NCBI RefSeq assembly: GCF_002127585.1 | Contig: NZ_NEGZ01000004.1 | Location: forward strand, 40,063-104,062 | Reading direction: 5' to 3' | Length of the DNA: 64,000 nt | DNA from: Janthinobacterium sp. GW458P | GTDB lineage: Bacteria; Pseudomonadota; Gammaproteobacteria; Burkholderiales; Burkholderiaceae_D | In this document: positions 1,937-58,893 of the stretch, one piece after another | Layout: each line of letters begins with the position of its first letter | Numbering within the stretch: position 1 is the first letter of the stretch | Position numbers and translations under genes: made by a program | The notes under the pieces: model-generated | What the model saw: only the letters and a program-made list of their open reading frames with translations | Database searches by the model: none | Told to the model about the DNA's origin: nothing

Positions 1937-2056
1937 GACGCTTGCTGCAAGCGTAGCGAGCGGAGGTGATGTGTGGCCGAGAAGCGCAACCGTACATGAG
2001 TACGGTGAGCATCGCAGGCCGCAAAGCGCCCCGCGCAGTAGCTTGCGGCAAGCGTC
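1937..2056 (+). repeat. Structured intergenic repeat, copy A
   Basis: About 120 bp of the dispersed element also found at 21868, 33635, 33762 and 57261. The core shared with other copies includes GTAGCGAGCGG, GTGGCCGAGAAGCGCAAC, the hairpin CCGTAC-ATGA-GTACGG, and GTGAGCATCGCAGGCCGCAAA. The outer arms differ from other copies (GACGCTTGCTGCAAGC and GCTTGCGGCAAGCGTC) yet pair with each other with one mismatch. It lies 1 base from the stop codon of the minus-strand gene at 2058-2264. Confidence 0.85.
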
Positions 2057-2057
2057 A

Positions 2058-2264
2058 TCACCCAGCGCGAATGGCGCGGATCTGCTGGGCCGTTTCCTCG
2101 ATCTCGCGATACGCTTCCTGGATGTAGCCGCCGATCGGGTGCCCGTCCATCCATTCAAAATAGGCGCGCTCGTCGTGCTTGATGGCAAAGGGGATGTGGT
2201 GGTCGCGTATCGAGACGGCCGTCTCGCGCACCAGCGAGGCGAAGATCAGCTCCAGAGTTTCCAT
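2058..2264 (-). CDS. Small hypothetical protein (68 aa)
   Basis: Soluble 68-residue protein starting METLELIFASLVRETAVSI. AAGGTG lies 6 bases before this ATG; an ATG at 2285 would add seven residues. The sequence is acidic and helical, with R-E-I-E-E-T-A-Q-Q-I near the C-terminus. No known domain. A much longer open frame running upstream to 3353 is rejected because it runs antiparallel to coding logic and overlaps mntP and uppP in another frame. Repeat copy A begins 1 base after its stop. Confidence 0.55.
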   Translation of the reverse strand: METLELIFASLVRETAVSIRDHHIPFAIKHDERAYFEWMDGHPIGGYIQEAYREIEETAQQIRAIRAG

Positions 2265-2359
2265 GAGGGTCACCTTGCGAGACATGAATGCAGAGCATTG
2301 AATGTAGCACAAAGCGGGCCGCCGGCCACGCCAGCGGCTGTGGCGTGCGCGCCCCGGCA

Positions 2360-2929
2360 TCAGGCCGGATGGCCGATATGCTCGTACAGGATCACGCAGC
2401 CGATGATGATCAGCACCAGGCCGCCCGCGAGTTCGGCGCGCCGCCCGGCGATGGTGCCGAGCACGCGGCCCAGCATCACGCCCAGGGTTACCATGACGAA
2501 GGTGGAAAAGCCGATGGCGGCCGCCGTGACGACGATATTGGCGCCCAGCAAGGCCAGGCCCGCGCCCACCACCATGGCGTCGATGCTGGTGGCCAGGCCC
2601 GTGACGGCCAGCACCCAGAACGAGTGCGACTGCGCGGGCGCTTCTTCCTCGTCGGCGTCGGACAAGGCATTGCGTATCATCAACAGGCCGATGCTGCCCA
2701 GCAGGCTGAAGGCGATCCAGTGGTCCCACGCTTCCACGTAGGGCGCGGCCACGCTGCCCAGGGCCCAGCCGATGATGGGCGTGATGGCTTCGATGACGCC
2801 GAAGATCAGGCCCGTGCGCAAGGCCTCGCGCCATTGCGGCTTGTGCAGGGCGGCGCCCTTGCCCACGGCGGCCGCGAAGGCATCGGTGGACATGGCAAGC
2901 GAGAGGGCGGCGGTGGCGGCGAAATTCAT
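2360..2929 (-). CDS. mntP: Manganese efflux pump MntP
   Basis: 189 residues, the usual length of MntP. It exports Mn2+ across the inner membrane and protects against manganese excess. It has six predicted helices in two repeats, with the family's charged intramembrane signatures ([14 protein letters not shown] near residue 10; [13 protein letters not shown] in the second half). The start at 2929 ([16 protein letters not shown]) matches the family N-terminus; the frame is open 42 bases further. It lies 60 bp downstream of uppP on the same strand and may be cotranscribed. That gap is too short for a yybP-ykoY manganese riboswitch, and I saw none upstream of uppP. Confidence 0.93.
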
Positions 2930-2989
2930 CGTTGGCTTTCTGTGAAACCTGGCTGGGATGGTGGGTTGCAAATGACAAACCCGGCGATT

Positions 2990-3844
2990 CTACCCCAGGT
3001 ACAGCACGACCAGCGAGGCCAGCAGGCAATAGGCGCCAAAGAAATGCCAGCGGCCCTGTTCCAGCCAGCGCGACAGCCAGCGCAGGGCCAGCAAGCCGGC
3101 CAGGAACGCGAGCAGCATGCCCAGCAGGCTGGGGCCGAGCAAATGCAGCAGGCTGTTGCCGTGTTCCAGATGGTCCAGGCTGCCATTTGCCACGGCCTGG
3201 TAGAAGCGCCAGCCTTCCTTGACCAGCACGGCGGGCGTCAGCACGACGGCCAGGGCGAAGCTGAATTCCTCGGCGCGGCGCTGCGGCACGCCCATGGCGA
3301 TGCCGGCCGAAATGGTGGCGCCCGAGCGGGAAAAGCCGCGGAAGGGCAGGCACAGGCCTTGCACGGCGCCGATCACCATGGCCTTGCCGATGGACAAGGT
3401 GCCATGCTGGCGCGCCTGCAGGCGCGACGACACAATGATCAGCACGCCGGCGGCGGCCAGCGCGGCGGCCATTAGTTTGGCGTTGCCAAACAGGTGCTCG
3501 ATTTCAAAGCCGGGCGCATTCTTGCTCATGACATGGGTGATGCCCTTGAGCAAGCCGAAGCCGACGATGCCCGTCAGGGCCGTGGCGGCCGCGAGCAGCA
3601 GCACATTGCTGCGCAAGGTGCCGGCCGAACTGAAATACGTGGCGCGCCAGGATGCCCAGAAATACACGATGACGGCGAACATGGTGCCTGTGTGTAACAT
3701 GACGAGCAGCATGGTCAGCTCGGGCGAGGTGGGGTCCAGGCCCATCCATTTTTCCGCCATGATGACGTGGGCGGAGCTGGACACGGGCAGCAGCTCGGCG
3801 AAGCCCTGGACGATGGAGAGGATAAATAATTGCAAAAAGCTCAT
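2990..3844 (-). CDS. uppP: Undecaprenyl-diphosphate phosphatase (UppP/BacA)
   Basis: 284 residues. It dephosphorylates undecaprenyl pyrophosphate so the lipid carrier can be reused for peptidoglycan and polysaccharide synthesis; loss causes bacitracin sensitivity. It is a multi-pass membrane protein with the first family motif QGFAELLPVSSSAH at residues 13-26. The second motif is FRGFSRSGATIS at about 168-179, where most relatives have P-G-x-S-R-S-G-A-T; the first Pro is Arg here, while the Ser-Arg-Ser core with catalytic Arg is kept. It is followed by mntP. Confidence 0.92.
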   Translation of the reverse strand: MSFLQLFILSIVQGFAELLPVSSSAHVIMAEKWMGLDPTSPELTMLLVMLHTGTMFAVIVYFWASWRATYFSSAGTLRSNVLLLAAATALTGIVGFGLLKGITHVMSKNAPGFEIEHLFGNAKLMAAALAAAGVLIIVSSRLQARQHGTLSIGKAMVIGAVQGLCLPFRGFSRSGATISAGIAMGVPQRRAEEFSFALAVVLTPAVLVKEGWRFYQAVANGSLDHLEHGNSLLHLLGPSLLGMLLAFLAGLLALRWLSRWLEQGRWHFFGAYCLLASLVVLYLG

Positions 3845-20268: not shown

Positions 20269-21867
20269 ATGCTTTCAACCGCAAATATTACGATGCAGTT
20301 TGGCGCCAAGCCATTGTTTGAGAATATCTCCGTCAAGTTCGGCGACGGCAACCGCTATGGCTTGATCGGCGCCAACGGCTGCGGCAAGTCGACGTTCATG
20401 AAGATCCTGGGCGGCGACCTGGACCCGTCGGGCGGCAACGTCATGCTCGACACCAACGAGCGCCTGGGCAAGCTGCGCCAGGACCAGTTTGCGTTTGAAG
20501 ACATGCGCGTGCTCGACGTCGTCATGATGGGCCACACGGAAATGTGGGCCGCGATGCAGGAACGCGACGCGATCTACGCGAACCTGGAAGCGACAGACGA
20601 GGACTACATGAAGGCGGCCGAGCTGGAAGGCAAGGTCTCGGAATACGACGGCTACACGGCCGAATCGCGCGCCGGCGAACTGCTGCTGGGCGCCGGCGTC
20701 GCCATTGATCTGCATCAAGGCCCGATGAGCAATGTCTCGCCAGGCTGGAAGCTGCGCGTGCTGCTGGCGCAGGCGCTGTTCTCGAACCCGGACATCCTGC
20801 TGCTCGACGAGCCGACGAATAACCTGGACATCAACACGATCCGCTGGCTGGAAGACGTGCTCAACGAGCGCAACTCCACCATGATCATCATTTCCCATGA
20901 TCGTCACTTCCTGAACCAGGTCTGCACCCACGTGGCCGACATGGATTACGGCACCCTGAAGATTTATCCGGGCAACTACGACGAATACATGTTCGCCTCG
21001 ACCCAGGCGCGCAACCAGCAGCTGGCCAACAACGCGAAAGCGAAAGACAAGGTTGCGGAATTGCAAGAATTCGTGCGCCGCTTCGCCGCGAACAAATCCA
21101 AGGCGCGCCAGGCCACCTCGCGCGCCAAGCAGATCGAAAAGATCAAGGTCGACGACATCAAGCCCTCGTCACGCGCCTATCCCTTCGTGCGTTTCGACGG
21201 CGAAAAGAAATTGCACCGTCTGGCCGTGGAAGTGGAGAACATCTCGAAAGGCTTTGACCGCCAGCTGTTCAAGAATTTCAGCATCATGGTCGAGGCGGGC
21301 GAGCGCATCGCCATCATCGGCGCCAACGGCGCCGGCAAGACCACCATGCTGCGCTGCATCGCGGGCGACATCGCCGGCCTGCAGCCGGACCAGGGCCGCG
21401 TGAAGTGGGCGGAAAACGCCAACGTCGGCTACATGCCGCAAGATCCGACGGAAGATTTCGCCAAGGATACGAACCTGACCGACTGGATCGGCCAGTGGAC
21501 GAAAGAGGGCGACGACGACCAGGCCGTGCGCTCCATCCTCGGCCGCTTGCTGTTCGGCGGCGACGATGTCAAGAAGGCCGTCAAGGTGCTGTCCGGCGGT
21601 GAAAAGGGCCGCATGATGTACGGCAAGCTGATGCTGGGCCGCCACAACGTGCTGATGCTCGACGAACCGACCAACCACATGGACATGGAATCGATCGAAT
21701 CGTTGAACATCGCGCTGGAAAAATACGCGGGCACCCTGATCTTCGTGTCGCATGACCGCGAATTCGTCTCTTCGCTGGCCAACCGCATCATCGAAATCAA
21801 GGAAGATGAAGTGGTCGATTACCGCGGCAATTACGAGGACTACCTGAAGAGCCAGGGTATCGATTAA
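20269..21867 (+). CDS. ybiT: ABC-F family ATPase YbiT
   Basis: 532 residues, close to E. coli YbiT over its full length. It has two ABC domains in one chain: Walker [10 protein letters not shown] (about 35-43) and GANGAGKTT in the second half, two signature and Walker B blocks ([22 protein letters not shown]), and an interdomain linker rich in Lys/Arg ([17 protein letters not shown]). ABC-F proteins have no membrane part; they bind the ribosomal E site and relieve stalled or aberrant elongation. The signature of domain 1 is degenerate (VSPGWKLR for LSGG), as in E. coli YbiT. Repeat copy B starts directly after its stop. Confidence 0.95.
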
Positions 21868-21996
21868 ACGCCTGATCAAACCTCGCGCGTCGCGCTTTGC
21901 GGCCTGTGATGCTCACCGTGCTTTAGCACGGTTGCGCTTCTCGGCCACAAGGGGGCGCCGAGCCTCGCTGCCGCTCGCTACGGTTTTATCAGGCGT
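21868..21996 (-). repeat. Structured intergenic repeat, copy B
   Basis: About 129 bp, starting at the base after the ybiT stop. Read on the minus strand it matches the other copies: ACGCCTGATAAAACC arm, GTAGCGAGCGG, TTGTGGCCGAGAAGCGCAACC, hairpin CCGTGC-TAAA-GCACGG, GTGAGCATCACAGGCCGCAAAGCG, closing arm GGTTTGATCAGGCGT. The arms pair with each other. The hairpin carries GC in place of AT at one pair relative to copies A and C (compensatory). It holds an extra 10-15 bases before TTGTGGCC. Confidence 0.88.
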
Positions 21997-22114
21997 TTGG
22001 AAAGCTGGTGGTGTACCCTGGTATCGCCACACCGACGCGCCGCGGTTATTTCGTTCCGGCGCACCTGCTTCATTGCAATCGTGCCGGTCTATCCCGTTTT
22101 TGTTTGACACAGCC

Positions 22115-33580: not shown

Positions 33581-33595
33581 CACATCTCCAGGCGT

Positions 33596-33620
33596 AAAAA
33601 AAGCGCTCCGTGGAGCGCTT
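33596..33620 (-). terminator. Intrinsic terminator downstream of the ppiC genes
   Basis: On the minus strand AAGCGCTCC-AC-GGAGCGCTT is followed by a run of T. A 9-bp perfect stem with a 2-base gap and T5 tail, after repeat copies C2 and C1 and before the AlkD-like gene. It ends transcription arriving from the parvulin genes. Confidence 0.8.
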
Positions 33621-33761: not shown

Positions 33762-33879
33762 ACGGCCGATAGAAGCGTAGCGGGCGGAAGTCAATTGTGG
33801 CCGAGACGCGCAACCGTACCTTGGTACGGTGAGCATCGCAGGCCGCAAAGCGCGACGCGCAGTAGCTTCTATCAGGCGT
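33762..33879 (+). repeat. Structured intergenic repeat, copy C2
   Basis: Best-preserved tandem partner: arm CCGATAGAAGC, GTAGCGGGCGGAAGTCAATT, TTGTGGCCGAGACGCGCAACC, hairpin CCGTAC-CTTG-GTACGG, GTGAGCATCGCAGGCCGCAAAGCGCGACGCGCAG, arm GCTTCTATCAGGCGT. The arms pair with each other and differ from copies B and D at paired positions (AAGC/GCTT against AACC/GGTT). It ends 2 bases from the ppiC stop at 33882. Confidence 0.85.
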
Positions 33880-33881
33880 TT

Positions 33882-34664
33882 TTACTGGATTTTGGCTTTT
33901 TTCATCAGTTCATCACGGAAAGCGGCCAGTTTCTTCTGCTGCAGCGATTCGGCCACCTGGCCCTTGACTTCTTCCAGCGCCGGCAGCTTCGTCGGACGGG
34001 TTTCTTCCAGCTTGATCACGTGGAAGCCGAATTGCGACTGCACCGGCGTTTGCGTGACCTGGCCTGGTTTCAGGGCGACCATGGCGTCGGAGAACGGCTT
34101 GACGTAGGAAGCAGGGCTGGCCCAGTCCAGGTCGCCGCCATTGGCTGCGGAACCGTCTTTCGATACTTTCGCCAGTTCTTCGAACTTGGCGCCGCCTTTC
34201 AGCTTGGCGATGATGTCTTTCGCTTCCGCTTCGGTGGCCACCAGGATGTGGCGCGCATGGTATTCCTTGTCGCCGGCCTGGGCCTTGAACTTGTCGTACT
34301 CGGCCTTGATTTCAGCGTCCTTGACGGGGTTCTTCTTGACGTAGTCGGCCAGCAGGGCGTTGATGATGATGCTTTGACGGGCATTTTCGATCTGCGACTT
34401 GACTTCAGGACGGGTGCCGTAGCCTTGCTTGTCGGCTTCCTGGATCAGCACTTCGCGGCCGATCAGGTCTTTCTTGATGGCTTCGCGCAATTGCGGCGAA
34501 TCAGCTTGCTTGCCTTGGGCGACGACTTGCTTGACGACCTGGTCGACGCGCGACGACGGGATGGCCTTGCCGTTCACGGTGGCGACGTTTTGTGCAAAAG
34601 CCGGAATCGCCACAACGGCGACCAGGGCTAGGATCAGGCGGGCTGGCTTCAAAATCATGTTCAT
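33882..34664 (-). CDS. Peptidyl-prolyl isomerase, PpiC/parvulin type (copy 1)
   Basis: 260 residues with a signal peptide ending AIPAFAQ. A SurA-like N-terminal helical region (NGKAIPSSRVDQVVKQVVAQG) is followed by the parvulin domain at about 130-225 (YHARHILVATEAEAKDIIAKLKGGAKFEELAKVSKDGSAANGGDLDW...FGFHVIKLEE). It isomerises prolyl bonds of periplasmic or outer-membrane proteins. It is a close copy of the gene at 34774, so this is a tandem duplication. It is last in the selO-msrB-yciB-bolA-ppiC run; repeats C2 and C1 and a terminator follow. Confidence 0.93.
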   Translation of the reverse strand: MNMILKPARLILALVAVVAIPAFAQNVATVNGKAIPSSRVDQVVKQVVAQGKQADSPQLREAIKKDLIGREVLIQEADKQGYGTRPEVKSQIENARQSIIINALLADYVKKNPVKDAEIKAEYDKFKAQAGDKEYHARHILVATEAEAKDIIAKLKGGAKFEELAKVSKDGSAANGGDLDWASPASYVKPFSDAMVALKPGQVTQTPVQSQFGFHVIKLEETRPTKLPALEEVKGQVAESLQQKKLAAFRDELMKKAKIQ

Positions 34665-34773
34665 TCCTAATAGATATACAAAAACTGATACGGAGAGTGC
34701 GCCTGCGGGGCAGTGCGCATTCAGGCGCAGAATACACGACCGGCGCCGAAAAGGGCGCCGGGGAGGTCAGTTC

Positions 34774-35553
34774 TTACTGAACTTTCGCTTTTTTGATCAT
34801 TTCTTCCTGATACGCTTGCAGTTTCTTTTGTTGCAGCGCTTCGGCGATCTGTGGCTTGACTTCTTCCAGGGTCGGCAGTTTTGCCGCGCGGGTGTCGTCC
34901 AGCTTGATTACGTGGAAACCGTTAGGCGTTTGCACCGGGGTGTCCGTAACCTGGCCTTTTTGCAGTTTCACGAAGGCGTCGGAGAACACTTTCGGGAACG
35001 ACGACGGGGCTGCCCAGTCCAGGTCGCCGCCATTGTCGGCCGAACCCGCATCTTTCGATTGCTTGGCCAGGTCTTCGAACTTGGCGCCGCCTTTCAGCTT
35101 GGCGATGATGTCTTTCGCTTCGGCTTCGGTGCCCACCAGGATATGGCGCACATGGTATTCCTTGTCGCCCGTCTGGGCCACGAAGCGGTCGTATTCGGCC
35201 TTGACTTCAGCGTCCGTGACGGGATTCTTTTTCAGGTAGTCGCCGACCAGGGCGTTGATGACGATGGCCTGGCGCGCGTTCTCGATTTGCTGCTTGACGG
35301 CTGCATCTTTACCGAAACCTTTGTTTTCCGCTTCTTGCATCAGCACTTCACGGCCGATCAAGTCCTTCTTGATCATTTCGCGCAGTTGCGGCGAATCCGG
35401 TTGCTGGCCTTGGGCGACGACTTGCTTGACGACTGCATCAACGCGCGACGATGGGATAGGCTTGCCATTAACGACGGCAACATTTTGCGCAAAAACAGGT
35501 ACCGCGACAACGGCGAGTAGTGCGATCAGCAAGCGGGCTGGCTTAAAAGTCAT
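34774..35553 (-). CDS. Peptidyl-prolyl isomerase, PpiC/parvulin type (copy 2)
   Basis: 259 residues, same layout as the gene at 33882: signal peptide (VAVPVFAQ), helical N-terminal region, parvulin domain YHVRHILVGTEAEAKDIIAKLKGGAKFEDLAKQSKDAGSADNGGDLDWAAP. Very similar to copy 1 along its length, with most changes conservative, so the duplication is recent or both are under selection. The usual betaproteobacterial cluster has one ppiC after bolA; the second copy is the extra one. Spacing is 109 bp between the two genes. Confidence 0.93.
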   Translation of the reverse strand: MTFKPARLLIALLAVVAVPVFAQNVAVVNGKPIPSSRVDAVVKQVVAQGQQPDSPQLREMIKKDLIGREVLMQEAENKGFGKDAAVKQQIENARQAIVINALVGDYLKKNPVTDAEVKAEYDRFVAQTGDKEYHVRHILVGTEAEAKDIIAKLKGGAKFEDLAKQSKDAGSADNGGDLDWAAPSSFPKVFSDAFVKLQKGQVTDTPVQTPNGFHVIKLDDTRAAKLPTLEEVKPQIAEALQQKKLQAYQEEMIKKAKVQ

Positions 35554-57223: not shown

Positions 57224-57260
57224 GAGTCTCCTGAATGATTATTTAAGGCGTATTCTTAAA

Positions 57261-57391
57261 ACGCCTAACAAAACCGCAGCGAGCGGATGTGGGTTGTGGT
57301 TGAGACGCGGAACTGTGCGAAGCACGGGGACGCCGAGTCAGTGAGCATCGGAAACCGCGACCCGCGACGCGCAGTAGGTTTTGATAGGTGT
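57261..57391 (+). repeat. Structured intergenic repeat, copy D
   Basis: About 131 bp, between rbsA and rbsC, ending 2 bases from the rbsA stop. Arms ACGCCTAACAAAACC and GGTTTTGATAGGTGT pair with two mismatches. Inner GTGGTTGAG pairs with AACCGC, where other copies have GTGGCC/GGCCGC (compensatory change). Hairpin TGTGC-GAA-GCACG matches the GTGC type. It has an extra 15 bases (GGGACGCCGAGTCA) after the hairpin. The most divergent copy, lying inside an operon. Confidence 0.82.
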
Positions 57392-57393
57392 TT

Positions 57394-58893
57394 TTAGGCC
57401 GCTTCCAGCTGGGTGGCGTAGGCGAGGATGTTTTCCTGCGTGATATCGTCGCCCGTCACTTCGCCCGTCAGCCGTCCTTCGCACATCACCATCACGCGGT
57501 CGCAGATGCCGACCAGCTCGGCCAGTTCGCTGGAAATGCACAGTACGGCCGTGCCCGCGTCCGCCAGCTGGTGGATGATCTTGTAGATTTCGCTTTTCGC
57601 GCCCACGTCCACGCCCCGCGTCGGTTCGTCGAGGATGAGGACCTTGGGGGCGATGGCCAGCCAGCGCGCCAGCAGGACTTTCTGCTGGTTGCCGCCAGAC
57701 AATCCCCCCACGATGCCGTCCGGCCCCGAGACCTTGACGTTGAGGTTGGCAATCGCCTCGCGCGTGAGCTGCGTCAGGGCGCCACGGTTGACCACGCCCG
57801 CCGTGGAATGCTTTGAAAGTATGTTCATCGACATGTTTTCCATGGCCGACAACTGCATGAACAAGCCCAGGCTCTTGCGGTCTTCCGGCAGATAGCCGAT
57901 GCCGTGGCGTATCGCCGCCAGCGGCCGCTGGATGTGCACTTCCTGGCCGTCGAGCCACACTTGTCCCGATGCTTTCTTGTCGGCGCCAAAGATCAGCCGC
58001 GCCAGTTCCGTGCGGCCCGCGCCCACGAGTCCCGCCAGGCCCGTCACTTCGCCCGCATGCAGGGCGAACGAGGCGGGTTTGACCTTGCCGCCGCCCACGT
58101 TTTCCACGCGCAGGCGCTCGGCGCCCCGCGTGCTGCGGCGCTGGTGCGAATAGAAGTCGTCGGCGGGACGGCCCACCATCATTTGCACGACTTTCTTTTG
58201 ATCCAGCTCATCCTTGCCCAGTTCGCCCACATAGGCGCCGTCGCGCAGCACCGTGATGCGGCGCGCCAGGCGTTCCACCTCGGCCATGCGGTGGCTGATG
58301 TAGAGCACGGCCAGGCCCTTGTCGCGCTGTTCTTCGATGATGCGGAACAATTGTTCGGTTTCCCGGTCGGACAGGGCGGCAGTGGGCTCGTCCATGATCA
58401 GGATGCGGCTTTCGTGCACGAGGGCGCGGGCGATTTCCACCTGCTGCTGCTCGGCGATCGACAGGGTAGCCACCATGGTGTCGGCGTCGAAGCGGGAACC
58501 GAGGTCGGCCAGGATGGCGTTCGTGCGCGCGCGCATTTCGCCGCCCTTGACGGTCCAGAACGGTCCTTGCGGCTCGCTGCCCATGAAGACGTTCTGCGCC
58601 ACCGTCATGTTCTTGGCCACGCTCAGTTCCTGGTAGATCAGGTTGATGCCCAGGGCGCGGGCCTCGCCCGGGTTGCGGATGCGGATTGGCTTGCCGTCGA
58701 GAATGATTTCACCGGCGTCCGGCGTGTACACGCCCGAGAGGATCTTCATCAGGGTGCTCTTGCCGGCGCCGTTTTCGCCCATCACGGCATGGATTTCGCC
58801 GCTGCGCACCGTCAGGTGCACGCCGCGCAGCGCGCGCGTGGCGCCGAAGCGCTTCTCGATGCCGCGCATTTCAAAAATAATATCGTCGCTCAT
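57394..58893 (-). CDS. Sugar ABC transporter ATP-binding protein (RbsA/XylG type)
   Basis: 499 residues with two ATPase domains. Walker A 1 is GENGAGKST (about 36-44), signature LSIAEQQQVEIARAL; the second domain has GLVGAGRTEL, LSGGNQQKVLLARWL and LILDEPTRGVDVGAKSEIYKII. It powers sugar import with the permease and RbsB. It lies upstream of the permease with copy D in the gap. Confidence 0.94.
   Translation of the reverse strand: MSDDIIFEMRGIEKRFGATRALRGVHLTVRSGEIHAVMGENGAGKSTLMKILSGVYTPDAGEIILDGKPIRIRNPGEARALGINLIYQELSVAKNMTVAQNVFMGSEPQGPFWTVKGGEMRARTNAILADLGSRFDADTMVATLSIAEQQQVEIARALVHESRILIMDEPTAALSDRETEQLFRIIEEQRDKGLAVLYISHRMAEVERLARRITVLRDGAYVGELGKDELDQKKVVQMMVGRPADDFYSHQRRSTRGAERLRVENVGGGKVKPASFALHAGEVTGLAGLVGAGRTELARLIFGADKKASGQVWLDGQEVHIQRPLAAIRHGIGYLPEDRKSLGLFMQLSAMENMSMNILSKHSTAGVVNRGALTQLTREAIANLNVKVSGPDGIVGGLSGGNQQKVLLARWLAIAPKVLILDEPTRGVDVGAKSEIYKIIHQLADAGTAVLCISSELAELVGICDRVMVMCEGRLTGEVTGDDITQENILAYATQLEAA

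Follow-up and report, generated by a model that had tools for sequence, protein, structure and literature searches.

A non-coding imperfect palindrome of 120–145 nt, a single hairpin with a conserved core, is mostly placed flush behind stop codons and in one orientation, and this rule is general in Janthinobacterium and far from random. In the genome of Janthinobacterium sp. GW458P, a same-strand coding stop was found at −3 to +3 nt from the start of the element in 75 of 103 copies (open-frame test; mode 0 nt, 29 copies), against 266 of 13,848 random intergenic positions (1.9%; either strand of the window, within ±3 nt of a stop). The statement of the initial annotation that random insertion would not give such a pattern was thus borne out in this genus. 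The explanation that we prefer, with middling confidence, is that the element is a dispersed, mobile-like palindrome of the ERIC/REP kind from a superfamily related to sX9, that its flush placement is mainly a trace of purging, and that most of its copies are near-neutral.

Copies in the window and structure of the element

The window, that is the whole 64-kb stretch of DNA that was analysed, contains five copies of 120–135 nt, named A, B, C1, C2 and D (Table 1). As had been described in the initial annotation, copies A, C2 and D adjoin stops on the minus strand; their starts (2057, 33881 and 57393) follow directly after the stops at 2058, 33882 and 57394. Copy B does adjoin the ybiT stop, but the base given for its start was 2 nt off. 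The conserved start AAACGCC runs from 21866 and shares two bases with the TAA at 21865–21867. The strand of the gene relative to the repeat, which was said to be the same for A, B, C2 and D, was indeed identical in four of four cases. C1 (33754–33634, minus strand) is a fifth copy, in addition to the four described in the initial annotation; it follows C2 as a tandem copy, 127 nt downstream of the stop that C2 adjoins.

Table 1. Positions of the element copies and of neighbouring features in the window.
Feature	Position	Strand	Remarks
Copy A	1937..2057	-	outer-stem sequence divergent, self-complementarity retained
Copy B	21866..21997	+	carries 3'-arm insert; downstream of ABC-F ATPase ORF
Copy C1	33634..33754	-	tandem behind C2
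Copy C2	33761..33881	-	adjoins TAA of PPIC-type gene
Copy D	57260..57393	-	adjoins TAA of sugar-type ABC ATPase gene; carries apical insert
ORF with putative start, ending at copy A	2058..3353	-	no family match
ABC-F family ATPase gene	20269..21867	+	NF011646 over cut-off; upstream of copy B
Intrinsic-terminator-like hairpin and T run	33594..33620	-	read from sequence; downstream of C1; also in orthologues without the element
PPIC-type peptidyl-prolyl isomerase gene	33882..34664	-	upstream of C2
ABC transporter ATPase gene	57394..58893	-	sugar type by best NCBIfam matches, none over cut-off; upstream of D

The ORF that ends at copy A had no match in Pfam, NCBIfam or plasmid collections, and its upper part overlaps the BacA gene (2990–3844). 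In the open-frame test, copy A belongs to the 16 of this genome for which no coding ORF was found. The gene caller chose an overlapping plus-strand ORF at this place, and this call is probably wrong because the BacA gene there is on the minus strand. Upstream of C2, two adjacent PPIC-type isomerase genes (33878–35553) form a tandem duplication whose DNA is 75–82% identical.

The predicted fold of copy B has an energy of −69.1 kcal/mol (z −5.0). RNAalifold gave 36 pairs for 51 aligned copies, and 20 of these pairs showed at least one pair-keeping double change. This covariation of the stems could alternatively stem from arm-to-arm correction of palindromic DNA. The outer stem varies among copies and genera and is nonetheless largely self-complementary. 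Three blocks are conserved, namely CTRCTGCGCG, GCGATGCTCAC..GTTGCGCTTCTC and CCGCTCGCTACG; the search pattern behind the cross-genus set prescribed the middle block and left the outer two free. Some copies carry mutually complementary inserts, which were apical in 29 of 104 copies, in the 3' arm in 14 and at both places in seven. One or both arms of some copies (B and D of the window, and those at loci L007, L009, L019 and others) contain a short module close to GGCTCGGCGCCCCC or its complement GGGGGCGCCGAGCC, which looks as though a smaller unit, mobile or exchangeable, were moving within the element.

Register and orientation at stop codons

The genome comprises 156 contigs with a total of 6.28 Mb. 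We scored the best 40 of 151 candidates of the DNA search, and a pattern search added further places. When duplicates and two partial matches had been removed, 104 distinct full copies were kept, so the genome holds at least 104. The open-frame test covers the 103 copies with enough upstream sequence. In this test, 87 of the 103 copies had a same-strand coding stop at −33 to +11 nt and 16 had none. At the 3' end of the element, a stop on the opposite strand fell inside the test range in 22 of 103 copies, and within ±3 nt in only three. The stops of the 87 copies were TAA (40), TGA (28) and TAG (19). For comparison, 189 other genes, a set that may include overlaps between loci, used 90 TAA, 74 TGA and 25 TAG, and the proportions of TA-containing and TGA stops were similar (Fisher p = 0.29).

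A simple gene caller that scores codons, for which 30 long ORFs of the window served as the training set, gave a similar picture. The 5' neighbour was a same-strand gene in 90 of 104 copies and a minus-strand gene in 11, and three had no call. Among the 90 copies with a same-strand 5' gene, the distance was −3 to +3 nt in 73 and −15 to +15 nt in 83. The stops of convergent neighbours were a median of 37 nt away from the 3' end of the element (50 cases), and the element is therefore not simply squeezed between genes. Eighteen copies without an upstream coding gene were hand-picked; a stop-like triplet was present at the junction in 13 of these 18 against 19 of 144 control windows, a count that is inflated by the A-rich start of the element. 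Given that most copies are flush and one-way, a transcript that extends beyond such a stop would have a 3' UTR that opens with the hairpin in a fixed sense. Tandem copies also occur: locus L087 has three behind one gene (at about 1459, 1701 and 1910), with a shared outer stem that differs from the genus consensus.

We also assessed 101 further copies in other genomes, mostly of Janthinobacterium with some from other genera, and some of them orthologous to one another. A stop lay within −3 to +3 nt in 49 and within −14 to +14 nt in 72, and 29 had none. In Massilia, none of eight assessable copies was flush with a stop, and a ninth runs off the end of its locus. Loci outside Janthinobacterium, Massilia included, had a stop at −4 to +3 nt in 13 of 28 cases, and one Hylemonella copy begins at the end of a tRNA-Sec gene. 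For the first eight distant loci, a frame of at least 80 codons ended at −14 to +1 nt in six. For the next 23, a stop abutted the sense side in eight and the other side in six (shifted controls, 8 of 182). Because stops were found on either end in these distant lineages, the one-way rule is not general in the class. In a plasmid match from Aeromonas (partial, with a distant copy as query), the copy starts with the TGA that closes a frame of 331 codons, and a Yersinia copy is oriented opposite to both neighbouring genes, contrary to the rule. The tabulation of distance and orientation that the initial annotation had proposed therefore came out non-random for the collected Janthinobacterium copies and weaker outside the genus, in Massilia and the distant lineages.

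In seven distant relatives (L420, L424, L425, L428, L431, L432 and L437), the outer stem follows the pattern TA-GCAGGCTGTTGAAAAAC / GTTTTTCAACAGCCTGC-TA, and thus either end can give the flanking frame a TAG or TAA stop.

Spread and turnover of the copies

The element was found in many named Janthinobacterium records. All copy numbers are lower bounds, with the best 40 (own genome), 86, 18, 12 or 8 candidates scored per genome. In the genus search, 24 of 25 genomes matched (own included), with 1 to at least 86 copies; the sole genome with 0 copies is 82% complete. The family search gave matches in 106 of 195 genomes and 32 of 44 genera at E 1e-5, and among other families of the order one of 16 genomes matched, weakly. 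Class-wide, model R1 found the element in 9 of 274 genomes at E 1e-8, and model R2, which was built from distant members, in 78 of 369 genomes and 65 of 272 genera at E 1e-6 (own genome included in both). R2 recovers Janthinobacterium copies (locus L401, E 4e-15; own genome, best 1.5e-15), and L401 was also recovered by a sequence profile of eight distant copies (E 4e-8). With a Janthinobacterium copy as query, no match was found in plasmid or phage collections. A distant copy gave partial matches in two plasmid records (Aeromonas, Yersinia) and in two records of one Yersinia phage, and a match in one of 5,426 E. coli genomes. In the abstracts of the literature on Janthinobacterium repeats and on structured RNA of Burkholderiales, we recognised no account of the element.

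Ten sites of this genome were compared with 7–15 relatives each. The resulting 100 relative sites were hand-picked among the matches listed (all loci given plus selected genomes); weaker paralogous matches were dropped, and four genomes are represented by only a minority of their rows. A full element was present in 16 of the 100, and the rest were empty or held a shortened remnant or other sequence. At one site, which we take from its sequence to be dnaA-dnaN, the insertion in this genome lies directly after the base following the stop; most of the relatives read have no element there, or only what is left of one. Orthologous sites also hold remnants that have lost most of the core. The suggestion in the initial annotation that the repeat is a mobile element was upheld in the sense that it is mobile-like, as seen from empty sites, variable copy number and remnants. 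Its terminal inverted repeats, non-coding nature, dispersal and empty sites are traits of MITEs, and its termini vary among copies and genera.

Some remnants (L292, L289, L262, L310, L311 and L273) lack the interior and often retain the outer palindrome, the pattern expected of deletion at palindromes. In several Janthinobacterium orthologues of window positions 21840–22080 (L290, L293, L298, L319 and L337), the place of copy B after the ABC-F gene is taken by a GTAG-type inverted repeat pair; this pair is a family separate from the element, and its 14-base core has 12 matches in this genome with at most one mismatch.

We did not find a mobilising gene. Y1 transposases were present in 24 of 24 genomes searched, whatever the copy number; this genome has two Y1 genes, neither with a copy of the element closer than about 1.5 kb. 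A RAYT-mobilised REP was rejected, as the unit is 120–145 nt against 20–40 bp and is not near the Y1 genes. A TA-targeting MITE was rejected as well; there was no consistent signal of target duplication at the element sites, and none of the 104 copies had TA flanking its outer stem on either side together. No related autonomous element came to notice. At the site of copy D, the comparison with empty sites is compatible with a duplication of TA or TAA.

To judge how settled copies change, we made 25 comparisons, which are not independent, between orthologous copies. Single changes broke pairs in 56 cases and kept them in 23, and double changes kept pairs in 21 and broke them in nine. The divergence of the element against that of the 60 nt downstream ranged from 1/121 versus 6/60 up to 24/121 versus 3/58, and the last case may possibly be an independent insertion. 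Judged from these changes, the decay of orthologous copies looks unconstrained, and the structure is not visibly maintained. Such decay would count against strong gene-by-gene regulation, and it suggests that the conserved core more likely reflects copies competent to spread than copies that regulate.

Origin of the placement and likeness to known repeats

The placement could be caused by targeted insertion, in which the mobility machinery is guided either by the place where a translated or functional stretch ends or by a stop-like triplet, and there inserts the element in one orientation. The very tight register (mode 0 nt) speaks for it, as do the junction triplets in 13 of the 18 copies without an upstream coding gene and several empty sites that reveal insertion directly behind the stop. 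However, all three stop codons are used as in background genes, and no consistent target duplication was seen. With neither of these signs, no DNA target is evident. The Hylemonella copy at the end of a tRNA gene and the 11 of 104 copies with a minus-strand 5' gene likewise give no support to the earlier suggestion of a mobile element that targets stop codons, if this is taken to mean a DNA target. None of the eight assessable Massilia copies and only part of the distant copies follow the rule; we regard targeted insertion as rather unlikely. A wider conjecture, which we consider quite improbable, is that a widespread mobile hairpin, with sX9 as a fragment of it, inserts in coupling to translation termination or transcript ends, is thereby set flush behind stops in one sense, and so reads gene function and not DNA sequence.

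It may also be that the hairpin is a selected cis-regulatory RNA of the 3' UTR, kept gene by gene for mRNA decay or for the release or stalling of ribosomes, like the REPs of E. coli. Orientation and register are fixed, the core is conserved and the stems covary, and, according to work cited in the available part of PMC12306157, ribosomes stall at E. coli REPs that lie close to stops. However, close relatives differ in the presence of the element, pairs are lost in orthologous copies at a neutral-looking ratio, and remnants missing most of the core stand at the same sites. This role is thus doubtful, with a modest chance of being right. A transcription terminator would account for a strong hairpin right behind genes, and the initial annotation had proposed an effect on termination. 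Against this stands the C site, where a second, terminator-like hairpin further downstream persists in relatives whether or not they have the element; in the copies read by eye, moreover, no T run followed the hairpin consistently. We therefore consider this function very unlikely. The size range of attC sites of integrons is comparable to that of the element, and an imperfect hairpin abutting a stop codon would suit an attC-like recombination site. However, no integron integrase over the family cut-off was found in this genome, the copies are scattered singly or in tandem with a gene-cassette array in none of 80 loci checked, and the outer stem differs among genera without the constant AAC/GTT. 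An attC site was rejected as extremely improbable.

In the preferred explanation, that of purging among mobile-like copies, the hairpin would be tolerated where a terminating ribosome repeatedly opens its foot, and selection would act against it at other places or in the opposite sense. The one-way flush placement would then be mainly the trace of this purging. The core may be conserved because copies need recognition to spread. Settled copies would mostly be near-neutral, with at most a mild effect on the decay of the upstream mRNA, as described for ERIC in Yersinia. A role in mRNA stability is possible. Against this explanation stand the Massilia copies that are off the rule, a mobilising gene and a target duplication that were not found, and the stop-like junction triplets without a coding gene upstream (13 of 18), which purging does not predict. 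Small palindromic repeats near stops are already known; in the present case the placement is so narrow (mode 0 nt, with one orientation and all three stops) that a simple comparison of strains could separate targeting from purging.

Comparison with Rfam gave nothing over the gathering score in the window and nothing at E 10 around copy B. For six loci at E 5 there were four matches, one of them on the element (sX9, locus L168, below threshold); two microRNA family matches at L168 were taken as chance matches to a palindrome. Against the distant loci, the model of the Xanthomonas sRNA sX9 (RF02228) scored over its gathering score of 44 in two of eight, at 51.6 and 46.8 bits, and seven of eight were at E ≤ 1. 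These two matches span the full 76 model positions, along the apex and the 3' arm. A Burkholderiaceae copy reached 22.9 bits, below threshold. At genome level, sX9 was over threshold in two of 10 genomes; this genome and a second Janthinobacterium genome had no match. The sX9 model covers only about half of the element, and the Janthinobacterium copies lack a match to it. This suggests that sX9 may be part of a larger dispersed repeat at gene ends, which would alter the reading of sX9 annotations; the available part of PMC9029176 places sX9 in the top 20 of annotated sRNAs by prevalence.

ERIC (IRU, RU-1) is described in the accessible parts of two papers as an imperfect palindrome of about 127 bp at gene ends, mobile and with orientation-dependent effects on RNA (PMC2229807, PMC10969869). 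From that description, it shares with our element the long imperfect palindrome at gene ends and a mobile-like character, whereas TA duplication is a feature of ERIC that was not seen here. At two E. coli loci, ERIC starts a few nt behind the stops of cusC and ybhI. The nhmmer sequence profile of distant members did not find ERIC at E 10 and R1 found none, and R2 gave 15.7 and 13.9 bits for the two ERICs (E 0.04 and 0.11). Judged from these scores, homology with ERIC is suggestive, not established. De Gregorio reportedly made findings on stop codons and orientation of ERIC in 2005.

For REP and GTAG-tagged repeats, the portion available of PMC3733652 describes a position near the 3' end of the upstream ORF, with termini that can supply the stop codon, and nearly half of E. 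coli REPs are close to stops according to what was accessible of PMC12306157. Between them, the sections seen of PMC3733652, PMC12306157, PMC2229807 and PMC10969869 report stop-proximal placement, orientation effects, ribosome stalling and exposure to RNase E for ERIC and REP repeats. REPs are units of 20–40 bp, in contrast to the single hairpin of 120–145 nt with its own core. The Betaproteobacterial repeat element (BRE) of Bordetella is dispersed and tandem, mostly intergenic, variable in copy number and about 90 bp long, and the genome table in the available part of that paper does not include Janthinobacterium (PMC3110155). Compared by this description only, our element is also dispersed and tandem but longer. 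As its anatomy and location are like those of ERIC and REP repeats, and homology with ERIC is only suggestive, we file the element with the ERIC/REP kind and link it to sX9.
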